Source: Candidatus Hydrogenedentota bacterium
GTDB taxonomy: Bacteria; Hydrogenedentota; Hydrogenedentia; Hydrogenedentales; JAEUWI01
NCBI GenBank assembly: GCA_016791475.1
Contig: JAEUWI010000040.1
Location: 1 to 64,000, forward strand
Direction of reading: 5' to 3'
Length of the DNA: 64,000 bases
The number at the start of each line of letters is the position of its first letter. Position 1 is the first letter of the stretch. The position numbers and the translations under genes were made by a program. This document shows, one piece after another, positions 22,790 through 29,395 of the stretch. The notes beneath the pieces were generated by a model that saw only the letters and a list, made by a program, of their open reading frames with translations, was not told the origin of the DNA and made no database searches.

Positions 22790-22835
22790 ATGGAGTGGGG
22801 GCTTTCAGCCCCCGTCCCGCGCAACGCAGTTGCGC
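22790..22835. repeat. REP-like element, copy 1 of 2
   Basis: The stretch has GGGGGCT-TTC-AGCCCCC (hairpin) followed by GCAACGCAGTTGC (palindrome). A copy differing at only a few bases lies at 57137-57184, which shows a dispersed repeat family rather than a chance hairpin. Confidence 0.8.
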
Positions 22836-22850
22836 GCAGTCCGATTGCTG

Positions 22851-22879
22851 TTGACAGTACCCGGCCCGAGTGCTTTAAT
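22851..22879 (+). promoter_or_regulatory. Sigma-70 promoter of PIN toxin operon
   Basis: TTGACA (22851-22856), a 17-base spacer and TTTAAT (22874-22879) precede the PIN gene by 45 bases. The pattern is the same as at 20360-20388. Confidence 0.7.
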
Positions 22880-22924
22880 AGAGGCAATAGTTGCGGCTGG
22901 AAAATGCGGAGCGAGTTCAAAGAG

Positions 22925-23422
22925 ATGAAGCCCACGGTCTACGTCGAGACATCAGTCATCAGCTACCTCGCGGCAAGGCCGAGTCGGGATTTGGTAGTTG
23001 CCGCACGGCAGGCGATAACGCGGGACTGGTGGGAGAATCAACGACGAAGATTCGAGTTGCGCATCTCGACGCTTGTGGAGGAGGAAATTTCAGACGGAGA
23101 CGCTCTGGCTGCCGCGAGGCGTTTGTCCTGGGTTTCGGATATTCCCAGCCTTTCCATCACAGATGAGGCAAATTTGATTGCCCGGCTCCTGATTTCAAAA
23201 GGAACGGTACCGGCGGGAAGCGAGGAAGATGCGCTGCATATCGGCATTGCTGCGTCGCAAGGCGCTGAGTACTTGCTGACATGGAACTTTCGCCACATGA
23301 ACAATGCTGAGACGAAAGACGCCATTGCGAGTATAATCAGATTGAATGGCTACGAATGTCCGCGGCTGTGTTCGCCCGAAGAGCTTGGAGGTAAAAACGA
23401 TGTTTCCAGACCCGATTGTTGA
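22925..23422 (+). CDS. PIN-domain protein, VapC-type toxin
   Basis: The 165-residue protein begins VYVETSVISYLAARPSRD, in the style of PIN-domain ribonucleases. It has EEEISDGD in the middle and SEEDALHIGIAA then YLLTWNFRHMNN near the end, which supply the conserved acidic residues. VapC proteins cut tRNA or rRNA. An ATG at 22904 is also in frame, but the one at 22925 fits the homologous start. The partner overlaps its 3' end (ATG at 23400). The toxin-first order is less usual for VapBC. Confidence 0.78.
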   Translation: MKPTVYVETSVISYLAARPSRDLVVAARQAITRDWWENQRRRFELRISTLVEEEISDGDALAAARRLSWVSDIPSLSITDEANLIARLLISKGTVPAGSEEDALHIGIAASQGAEYLLTWNFRHMNNAETKDAIASIIRLNGYECPRLCSPEELGGKNDVSRPDC

Positions 23423-23597
23423 AGAAGTACGCCGTATTCGACAAGAGCATGCGGCAAAATACGGAAATGACCTCGATCGAATCGTAGAGGCGCTTCGTGA
23501 AAAGGAGCGGCTATCCACGCGGCCAGTGCTTAACCCGGGACCACGGCGGATACCGATAAAGCATGTGTCGGAGAGCGAGGAACCCTATGGTGGATAG
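23400..23597 (+). CDS. Small partner protein of PIN toxin, paralogue 1
   Basis: The 65-residue protein has the core PDPIVEEVRRIRQEHAAKYG followed by NDLDRIVEALREKE. Its ATG lies inside the PIN gene, and GGAGG is 8 bases upstream. The position suggests an antitoxin, but no known DNA-binding fold is visible. Two paralogues follow at 23688 and 23947 and share the P-I-V-x-E-I/V, HAA-x-YGNDL and RIV blocks. The conserved block is a helical region; the C-terminal half is variable. Confidence 0.7.
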   Translation: MFPDPIVEEVRRIRQEHAAKYGNDLDRIVEALREKERLSTRPVLNPGPRRIPIKHVSESEEPYGG

Positions 23598-23687
23598 TCC
23601 AAGAACTGAGTAGGTTTTGAAGAAGGGAAGCCCATCTTCACGGCACTGTTTTGACGCGCTTGGAAGGTGTTGCGGAAGGAGGTAAGG

Positions 23688-23903
23688 ATGATTGACGACC
23701 CAATTGTGAAAGAAATTCGCAAGTACCGCAAAGAACACGCGGCGCAGTATGGAAACGATCTTAAGCGAATAGTGCAAGCCTACCAGGAGATGGAGCGCGC
23801 ATCGGGTCGAGAATTTGTCAACTTCGAAGCCAAGCGCGTTCGGGTAACGAGGGCTTCGGAAGAGTCGACGCCGTACAAACCTTTGACTGAGGGAACTTCG
23901 TGA
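23688..23903 (+). CDS. Small partner protein, paralogue 2
   Basis: The 71-residue protein starts MIDDPIVKEIRKYRKEHAAQ, then YGNDLKRIVQAYQEMERA. It is plainly homologous to the 23400 protein, with a diverged C-terminal half. GGAGG lies at 23679-23683 ahead of the ATG. Whether it neutralises the PIN protein or a lost second toxin is unknown. Confidence 0.7.
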   Translation: MIDDPIVKEIRKYRKEHAAQYGNDLKRIVQAYQEMERASGREFVNFEAKRVRVTRASEESTPYKPLTEGTS

Positions 23904-23946
23904 ACCCATTAGACTGCGCCGCTCTGGGAAAGTGGAGGTTTAGCCA

Positions 23947-24171
23947 ATCATTCCAGACCCGATTGTTGAAGAAATTCGCGAAATTGTCAAGGCCCACGCG
24001 GCAAAGTATGGCAATGATTTAGATAGAATTGTCGAGGCGCTTCGCGAGGACGAGCGCGCGTCGTCACGTGTGTTTCTCAACCCCGGACCGAGACTTCTCT
24101 CAACCCAGAAAGTTTCCGAGGAGTCGGGCAGCGATATCTCTGGAGTGAATTGGAGCCACAATAAGTCTTGA
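23947..24171 (+). pseudogene. Small partner protein, paralogue 3, without normal start codon
   Basis: The frame PDPIVEEIREIVKAHAAKYG, then NDLDRIVEALREDERASSRV, continues to TGA at 24169-24171. It matches paralogue 1 closely, including the GPR motif. Where paralogue 1 has GGAGG-8 bases-ATG-TTT-CCA, this copy has GGAGG-8 bases-ATC-ATT-CCA. The ribosome-binding site is intact, but the start codon is ATC or ATT. Either it is translated weakly from a non-standard codon or it has been silenced by a point mutation. Confidence 0.65.
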
Positions 24172-28528: not shown

Positions 28529-28545
28529 TTGGCACGGAAGGCGCT
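28529..28545 (+). promoter_or_regulatory. Sigma-54-type promoter of mini-protein cluster
   Basis: TTGGCACGGAAGGCGCT has the invariant GG (-24) and GC (-12) with exactly 10 bases between, and matches TTGGCACG of the -24 consensus in full. It lies 71 bases before the first mini-protein ATG. No sigma-54 activator gene is next to it. The gap 28331-28615 holds nothing else I can name. Confidence 0.55.
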
Positions 28546-28615
28546 TAGCGTGAGCATGTGCCGATGAAAGGCACGGGCCAAACAAAAATCCCGAACTCGG
28601 GTGGAGGAAGAAACC

Positions 28616-28789
28616 ATGAGCACGATCAAAATCACCGACTTGAACGAGACCACGGAAGTCACCACAGTCCAGGCTGAAAATGTGAAGGGGGGCGCCGCCT
28701 ACATCAAGTTCGATGGTATCGACGGCGAAAGCAAGCGGGCTGACCACAAGGGTGAAATCTTGATGAGCTTTTCCACGCCCAAGTCCTGA
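28616..28789 (+). CDS. Double-glycine-leader mini-protein 1, Hcp-like N-terminal strand
   Basis: This 57-residue protein has the leader MSTIKITDLN plus ENVKGG ending at residue 26, and a 31-residue cargo. The cargo YIKFDGIDGES, then HKGEI and SFS, closely follows the first strands of the type VI tube protein Hcp (iYlKfdGIkGes, HkgeI, lSws), then stops where Hcp would continue for 120 residues. A leader ending in Gly-Gly suggests cleavage and export by a C39-peptidase ABC transporter; none is in the window. GGAGGAAG lies 5 bases before the ATG. First of three tandem copies. Confidence 0.75.
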   Translation: MSTIKITDLNETTEVTTVQAENVKGGAAYIKFDGIDGESKRADHKGEILMSFSTPKS

Positions 28790-28846
28790 TTCTTTGTTAA
28801 CGATTTCATCAACTCAACGCCCCGCGATGGGGAGGAGGAACCTGCC

Positions 28847-29029
28847 ATGAGCACCATTAAACTGAACGAATTGACCGACACAACCGCCGTAAACGAGCAG
28901 GAAGCTGCCCAGGTGAAAGGTGGCCCGATTTACATGCAGTACGAAGGCATCAAAGGCGATGTCTCCGTCCAGAGCAAGCACATCGGCGGCGTCAACGTGG
29001 CCCTTGGCGACGGCTCCGTTCGATTCTAA
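28847..29029 (+). CDS. Double-glycine-leader mini-protein 2, Hcp-like strand joined to H-X9-DG motif
   Basis: This 60-residue protein has the leader MSTIKLNELT and AAQVKGG (cleavage after residue 26). The 34-residue cargo begins IYMQYEGIKGDV, matching the Hcp start. It ends H-IGGVNVALG-DG (H45, D55, G56) then SVRF, exactly the H-X9-DG pattern found at the C-terminus of DUF1559 pseudopilin-like proteins. It thus joins two unrelated motifs in 34 residues. GAGGAGGAACC precedes the ATG. It starts 57 bases after mini-protein 1. Confidence 0.75.
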   Translation: MSTIKLNELTDTTAVNEQEAAQVKGGPIYMQYEGIKGDVSVQSKHIGGVNVALGDGSVRF

Positions 29030-29080
29030 CGATTCAATTTTCACTGCGAAACACCAGACATCAACGAAAGGAGTCCCACT

Positions 29081-29263
29081 ATGGCAACTGTAAAGATAGA
29101 CGACTTGAATTCAGAATCCGCTGAAGCCCAGCCCGTGACCCTGGAAGAAGCGGCCCAGATTGTGGGCGGCGCCGAAGCCAAGCCCAAGCCCAAGCCGAAG
29201 TCCGAGCAACAGGTGTACTTGAACTACAAGCTCGAAAACGTGCTGGTCTCCTCATACTCCTGA
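29081..29263 (+). CDS. Double-glycine-leader mini-protein 3, Hcp-like C-terminal strand
   Basis: This 60-residue protein has the leader MATVKIDDLN and EEAAQIVGG (cleavage after residue 30). The cargo has a KPKPKPK spacer and then VYLNYKLENVLVSSYS, which matches the later Hcp strand (itLknvLvSSYs) rather than the N-terminal one carried by mini-proteins 1 and 2. GAAAGGAGT precedes the ATG. It starts 51 bases after mini-protein 2. Together the three carry the beginning and a later part of one fold on separate exported peptides. Confidence 0.75.
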   Translation: MATVKIDDLNSESAEAQPVTLEEAAQIVGGAEAKPKPKPKSEQQVYLNYKLENVLVSSYS

Positions 29264-29317
29264 CGCGTCGCACGCCTCAGCAACGCAAGTCCACGGAGCC
29301 CCCAAAGAAACAATGCA

Positions 29318-29395
29318 CGGGCGCGATGTCCGGGCCGTGCGGATACAGTCCGCACCGATCCCCTACGACAAGGATCTGAGCCCACATCGCGCCCG
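29318..29395 (+). ncRNA. Three-way-junction structure after mini-protein cluster
   Basis: Twelve outer base pairs (29318-29329 with 29384-29395) are extended by GGGC/GCCC (29332-29335 with 29380-29383). Inside are two hairpins: GTGCGGA-TACAG-TCCGCAC (29337-29355) and GATCC/GGATC (29357-29376). About 28 base pairs fall in 78 bases, which is too ordered for chance. No T-run follows, so it is not a simple terminator. It could be a 3'-UTR structure, a small RNA or a repeat unit. The strand is assumed from the upstream genes. The rest of 29264-30086 holds a repeat at 29887-30035 and no gene I can support. Confidence 0.5.

Follow-up and report, generated by a model that had tools for sequence, protein, structure and literature searches.

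C39-ABC exporters cut their substrates after a double-glycine (GG) motif and export them, and RRE domains bind leaders. Dominant-negative microproteins, small pieces of larger oligomeric proteins, are known as agents that could poison the corresponding assemblies. Among exporters, HetC of Nostoc has the architecture that concerns us here; its peptidase works, but no substrate is known for it (PMC10986499). In the window, the whole 64,000-nt stretch of Hydrogenedentota DNA that we analysed, three tandem genes (P1, P2 and P3) join such GG leaders to pieces of secretion-machine proteins. We tentatively favour the view, which we hold at somewhat less than an even chance, that they are precursors of a sigma-54-controlled, PCAT-exported RiPP-like regulon, the products of which would mimic motifs of Hcp and DUF1559 proteins.

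P1 (28616-28789), P2 (28847-29029) and P3 (29081-29263), all on the + strand, encode GG-leader mini-proteins of 57, 60 and 60 aa, each behind a purine-rich ribosome site, as an earlier sequence-only reading had described. Upstream, on the same strand, a sigma-54 type promoter (-24/-12, GG-N10-GC; TTGGCACGGAAGGCGCT) at 28529-28545 is the sole match to its pattern in the 64-kb window; its first base is where that reading had begun the cluster, and the end chosen there, 29395, falls inside a strong nested hairpin 3' of P3 (29300-29402, + strand; -56 kcal/mol, z -5.7). The P1 leader (residues 1-26, 28616-28693) reads MSTIKITDLNETTEVTTVQAENVKGG and its cargo (residues 27-57, 28694-28786) AAYIKFDGIDGESKRADHKGEILMSFSTPKS, composed of the Hcp N-terminal strand AAYIKFDGIDGESKRADHKGEI followed by LMSFSTPKS. 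In P2, the leader MSTIKLNELTDTTAVNEQEAAQVKGG (28847-28924) precedes the chimeric cargo PIYMQYEGIKGDVSVQSKHIGGVNVALGDGSVRF, which combines IYMQYEGIKGDV (28928-28963), the Hcp N-terminal word, with a DUF1559 H-X9-DG domain (28973-29026). The P3 leader MATVKIDDLNSESAEAQPVTLEEAAQIVGG (29081-29170) is followed by AEAKPKPKPKSEQQVYLNYKLENVLVSSYS, in which a late Hcp strand, QVYLNYKLENVLVSSYS, lies after a Lys/Pro linker within 29198-29260.

The nested hairpin is a possible transcript end. It is present in a single copy, with no second in the four genomes searched, and an Rfam search returned no match. Folds of similar strength follow the mini-protein clusters at L056 934 and L054 9009; a conserved 3' RNA structure for the family was rejected, as strong folds follow 3 of 17 clusters only, and a hairpin before the ribosome site was rejected for not rising above background. 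Many mini-protein genes have in common a GCAGGGGxGGAGG-like sequence that overlaps the ribosome site (upstream of L045 10053, L050 9983, L051 9962, L053 3291 and 3539, L048 10361 and L054 9769). Elsewhere in the window, at 22790-24161, a PIN-domain-like protein precedes a tandem trio of small ORFs (23346-23597, 23667-23903 and a third opposite 23940-24161) that share PIVxEIRxxRxEHAAxYGNDLxxIVxALxE and look like a triplicated antitoxin-type partner.

We next consider what the cargos are. Taken by the sequence-only reading as pieces of Hcp, P1 and P3 did align with PF05638, P1 through the N-terminal strand (positions 1-21, 17.8 bits, E 0.004) and P3 through a late strand (positions 88-108, 14.6 bits, E 0.04); both scores fall below the gathering cut-off of 23.5, so that each match alone is weak. 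Relatives at G006 C6 exceed the same cut-off, with 31.7 and 27.7 bits. P1 and P3 hold 21-residue stretches of Hcp, and the full domain of ~129 residues is absent. Local alignment placed P1 on residues 4-23 of the T6SS Hcp of the host (z 9.2), P3 on residues 92-112 of the same protein (z 5.9) and P2 on residues 310-331 of a DUF1559 protein (z 10). For P2, the proposed Hcp N-terminus stands as IYMQYEGIKGDV, but a complete H-X9-DG domain had been missed (TIGR04294 of NCBIfam, 34 bits, E 1.6e-8, cut-off 19; PF07596 of Pfam, 25.4 bits, over cut-off). P2 has a GG leader and a 34-residue cargo; a prepilin N-terminal leader and a full DUF1559 domain are absent.

A leader profile search of 68 Hydrogenedentota genomes extended the family to about 32 readable genes in four of them, the genome of the window (G000, 7.7 Mb; nine genes at five places) and three genomes of the same taxonomic family (G001, G003 and G006), with no members in the remainder; the paralogues anticipated for these leaders thus exist. 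The genes are solitary or form clusters of up to four. Their leaders follow the consensus M-x-x-I-x-[IV]-x-[DE]-L ... V-K-G-G, in which GG is invariant and V occupies position -4 in at least 90%, in keeping with the double-glycine leaders first proposed, and they match the ComC, Bacteriocin_IIc and TIGR01847 models, mostly weakly. The cargos, 14-46 residues long, draw one to three words each from a small vocabulary of conserved Hcp and DUF1559 words. From Hcp come the N-terminal strand ([PA]AY[ILM]K[LIF]GDIKGES), a middle word (TGKRQHKPxTITKELDKASPLL) and late words (LENVLVSSYS, with last strands SLNYERIRF or EVEWTY); from DUF1559 come LLLPAVQKVREAA, CSNNLKQLGLATHNF, SITDGTSNT and GDGSVRF. The first word usually stands directly after GG and the second, if any, at or near the C-terminus, in the N-to-C order of the parent protein. 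P2 and G001 C1 mix Hcp and DUF1559 words in one gene, as the G000 C7 cargo probably does, and several cargos have no recognisable word of either kind (among them the G001 C4 cargos and the first cargo at G001 C22). Three genes carry words in tandem: KLGDIKGES x3 (L054 9009-9239), TSYKL x2-3 (L047 15693-15884) and LGDGSVR x2 (L044 9929-10117), which points to the word, not the fold, as the unit. A C-terminal Phe ends 8 of 32 members (p about 3e-5), six of them in hydrophobic-[K/R]-Phe. Behind one mini-protein, a remnant at L054 9290-9350 (DEAARTKSLNKHVATTFASK) repeats the end of a neighbouring DUF1559-type mini-protein, a trace of duplication and cargo replacement. No copies in viral contigs were confirmed.

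The assignment of words exceeds what composition would give. PF05638 was matched by 6 of 31 real cargos and PF07596 by 5 of 31 (best E 6.8e-8 and 3.2e-10), against 0 of 31 for either Pfam model when shuffled cargos were placed behind intact leaders; NCBIfam models found H-X9-DG in five members and TssD/Hcp in two, and the solved structure of Hcp3 (3he1 75-103) was matched by a cargo of G006 at E 2.9e-6. The words also bear the marks of selection: pN was 0.056 with pS 0.52 for LLLPAVQKVR, 0 with 0.56 for LGDGSVR and 0.26 for the Hcp word, with pS of 0.52-0.59 across words, in rows chosen by motif, a choice that biases pN somewhat downwards. A single G001 gene, between flanks that are 73, 85 and 57% identical, is the syntenic counterpart of the window cluster, and it has the same late Hcp strand as P3 (ELENVRITSYQ). 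G001 C27 and G003 C651 are likewise syntenic, with LLLPAVQKVREAA in both, and G000 and G003 agree at their exporter loci, each of which has both cargo types. Because words are kept while codons diverge and cargo types recur at syntenic loci, the frames on which the sequence-only reading was built look conserved and selected, not noise.

Mini-proteins lie beside exporter and partner genes on contig C88 of G000 and on C278 of G003. The expected pairing of this leader with a C39 transporter therefore holds for the other members on C88, not for the window genes, which are not adjacent to the exporter. Its presence in the genome, with family members adjoining it, supports the idea that the peptides would be exported by a C39-peptidase ABC transporter. 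The exporter, of 1041 residues, joins two cNMP stretches to Peptidase_C39 and an ABC exporter (HetC-like). Encoded with it are a PpiC-type protein (TIGR04500-related, 52 bits, below cut-off), an HlyD protein, a sigma-54 activator (AAA and HTH_8, with a sigma-54 interaction domain), a Cys-rich protein of no Pfam family and a short companion, RLDDLD...VVGG...KLLFGE. At full strength the exporter occurs in exactly 3 of 68 Hydrogenedentota genomes (G000, G001 and G003), each with mini-proteins of its own; in G006, which is 60% complete, mini-proteins adjoin the genes for activator, Cys-rich protein and companion, and G002, G004 and G005, of the same family, have neither exporter nor mini-proteins. 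Such an overlap would arise by chance at ~8e-5 if the genomes were independent, which they are not.

Beyond Hydrogenedentota, Verrucomicrobia and Gemmatimonadota also have the PpiC-ABC-HlyD-activator operon (exporter identity about 50%), accompanied there by GG peptides whose leaders obey the same grammar but whose cargo is Gly/His-rich. No match to the family (A3) was found in 16 exporter-bearing genomes of Verrucomicrobia, Gemmatimonadota and others, and 388 Verrucomicrobiota genomes gave one true leader, in G197 with a Gly-rich cargo, the other matches being due to chance. At L174 of G197, within 1381-1827 on the - strand, the same-type leader MARIKITDLAEDTTVSADEMKAICGG is accompanied by the Gly-rich repeats GISIFGGGGASYGGSNC. 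The companion (L046 8108-8341, L054 12423-12707 and L093 7497-7679) keeps its signature, [VL]I[RQ]LDDL...GG...[LI][LV]FG, from Hydrogenedentota to Verrucomicrobia beside the exporter, and may be its ancestral substrate.

The Cys-rich protein (L046 10011-11162, L054 11115-12206, L047 16474-17652 and L056 2461-3537) was found in the four Hydrogenedentota only and has many invariant Cys. In a predicted structure of overall pLDDT 60, with fair confidence in the RRE-like part and low confidence elsewhere, its last 90 residues (286-374) resemble RRE folds (TigE Z 8.3, ThcOx 6.4, McbB 6.1 and TbiB1 6.0; Foldseek E 0.3). A PqqD assignment was rejected, with fold likeness and no Pfam match. The Cys-rich family is possibly a new peptide maturase. 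The predicted RRE-like domain also feeds the strongest alternative, in which the products are RiPP natural products: Hcp and DUF1559 words would serve as scaffold, and side-chain chemistry introduced by the Cys-rich RRE and PpiC proteins, not mimicry, would be the active principle. Leaders that match RiPP and bacteriocin models speak for it, as does the cluster for the graspetide rosaritide, where a PCAT accompanies a TIGR04500-type protein (PMC13097080). Yet Pfam placed no known modifying-enzyme family in the exporter locus, no ATP-grasp ligase was among the C88 locus proteins tested, and words from two source families only are kept beyond the seeming need of a scaffold. We regard this alternative as somewhat unlikely.

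Across the family, a sigma-54 site lies 52-187 nt before the first gene in 17 of 19 clusters, compared with 4% of random 250-nt windows; at C88, one of the two exceptions, the site precedes the companion gene that heads the cluster. The Verrucomicrobia genes tested had no such sites, and a search for a conserved upstream activator site gave no strong k-mer. Shared sites at clusters spread over the genome make these look like one regulon of the activator encoded at the exporter locus, and the two parts of a putative sigma-54 regulon, promoters and an activator with the interaction domain, are both present by sequence. Such a regulon would also suit a communication system in which the clusters encode peptide signals, with the CHASE hybrid kinase close to the C88 locus (L046 11820-16844) as one candidate sensor. 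Conservation of the companion KLLFGE peptide to Verrucomicrobia and the function of HetC-type exporters in cell differentiation (PMC10986499) agree with signalling; the number of different cargos in one genome (up to about ten), their variation between species and a CHASE kinase not found at other loci do not, and we consider it distinctly unlikely.

The host's own pseudopilins (about 47 in each genome) do not read like the cargos: they have LLPALARAREAARR and PGGxNVLYMDGHVxF. Copying from them was rejected, as LLPALARAREAARR with DGHVxF in the host contrasts with LLLPAVQKVREAA with DGSVRF in the cargos. The cargos have DUF1559 words of the planctomycete type. In a search that covered only plasmids of Planctomycetota, the likely holders of the model DUF1559, the nearest DUF1559 proteins encountered were planctomycete (59-64%). 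Because these words differ from the host pseudopilins, they would imitate foreign or generic proteins. Of full T6SS Hcp proteins the host has a single one, encoded on contig C10 next to a TssC-like gene; P1 and P3 resemble it, so that the model for the Hcp words may be self or foreign. Frameshifted or truncated full-length genes were rejected, with no Hcp or DUF1559 homology past the stops in any frame.

Two further readings are weaker. The genes could be relics, left over when internal deletions shortened what were once full-length GG-leader Hcp and GG-leader DUF1559 proteins, as the N-to-C order of the pieces and one dead duplicate remnant downstream of L054 9349 would allow; however, no full-length GG form was found in 68 Hydrogenedentota or 388 Verrucomicrobiota genomes, parent homology ends at the stops, and decay fits poorly with the uniform length, the chimeras across families, the tandem words and the purifying selection, which leaves relics improbable. 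That the mature peptides complement each other, or join into, cap or copy an Hcp tube, as the sequence-only reading proposed, has in its favour that P1 and P3 are strands of the same fold, but is highly improbable: each genome encodes several copies of the same N-terminal strand, none was found to hold every strand that a barrel requires, many cargos bear DUF1559 words in place of Hcp ones and P2 is itself an Hcp/DUF1559 chimera.

Imitation remains the reading that we prefer, since only two families supply the words, each made up of assembling subunits of secretion-machine or pilin-like kind, and since the words are retained by selection and occur in tandem copies, as would be the case if the word were the active unit. 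Family membership, leaders, cargo identity, promoters, co-occurrence with the exporter and selection on the words can all be read from the DNA itself. For the steps that would follow, we propose that the dedicated sigma-54 activator turns on the dispersed clusters, and that the leader would be recognised by the TIGR04500-like PpiC protein and the Cys-rich protein with its RRE-like domain. The HetC-like cNMP-C39-ABC exporter would then cut after Gly-Gly and export the peptides with its HlyD partner, leaving mature peptides that display the most conserved words of Hcp and DUF1559 pseudopilins. Outside the cell, these would most likely dock onto Hcp or DUF1559 assemblies, or their binders, in neighbouring bacteria, where docked mimics would compete with full-length subunits. 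We infer processing, export and modification, and above all the mimic or antagonist action.

Several observations weigh against this reading. Hcp is cytosolic in the target cell and hard for an outside peptide to reach, and the resemblance of P1 and P3 to the host's own T6SS Hcp means that the target could be self. The window cluster lies apart from the exporter, several cargos are wordless, the Verrucomicrobia form of the exporter goes with wordless Gly/His-rich cargos, and a non-systematic look identified no immunity gene. The most specific version, in which the repertoire consists of fragment-mimic assembly poisons or decoys against the Hcp tubes and DUF1559 pseudopilins of other bacteria, a new class of inter-bacterial agent, is one that we think unlikely. 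If the peptides do act on those machines, nature already uses exported fragment inhibitors of protein assemblies; even without such action, they form a clear candidate substrate set for a HetC-type exporter (C39 with a cyclic-nucleotide domain), which is missing for HetC. Double-glycine export is well known; for cargos made from words of two unrelated secretion-machine proteins, a literature search found no described precedent or counterpart, in line with the novelty first claimed for the locus.

Set beside known systems, the locus is nearest to HetC and other PCATs in its cNMP, C39 and ABC architecture, GG leaders and matches to bacteriocin-type leader models. HetC has no known substrate or nearby membrane fusion partner (PMC10986499), whereas the Hydrogenedentota system has many candidate substrates with Hcp and DUF1559 cargos, RRE-like and PpiC partners and sigma-54 control. 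The nitrile hydratase- and Nif11-related RiPP precursors (PMC2887384) are similarly export-linked, contain a piece of an unrelated cellular protein and are many per genome, but there the leader is the derived part, whereas the mini-proteins join an ordinary leader to a derived cargo. The rosaritide graspetide cluster (PMC13097080) shares the combination of a PpiC-type TIGR04500 protein, a PCAT and a precursor, and differs in its cargo and in the ATP-grasp ligase that was not found at C88. With Hcp (PF05638, TIGR03344) the mini-proteins share the N-terminal strand, TGxRxHxPxxITKxxDKASPLL and the late strands, although they hold only about 10-30 Hcp residues, no domain and no T6SS context, behind a GG leader. 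Likewise, LLLPAVQKVREAA, DGTSNT and the H-X9-DG words are those of DUF1559/H-X9-DG pseudopilins (PF07596, TIGR04294), without the prepilin leader and most of the domain. Compared with dominant-negative microproteins, whose poisoning of assemblies would be the putative action here too, the mini-proteins are distinguished by being multiplied and probably exported.
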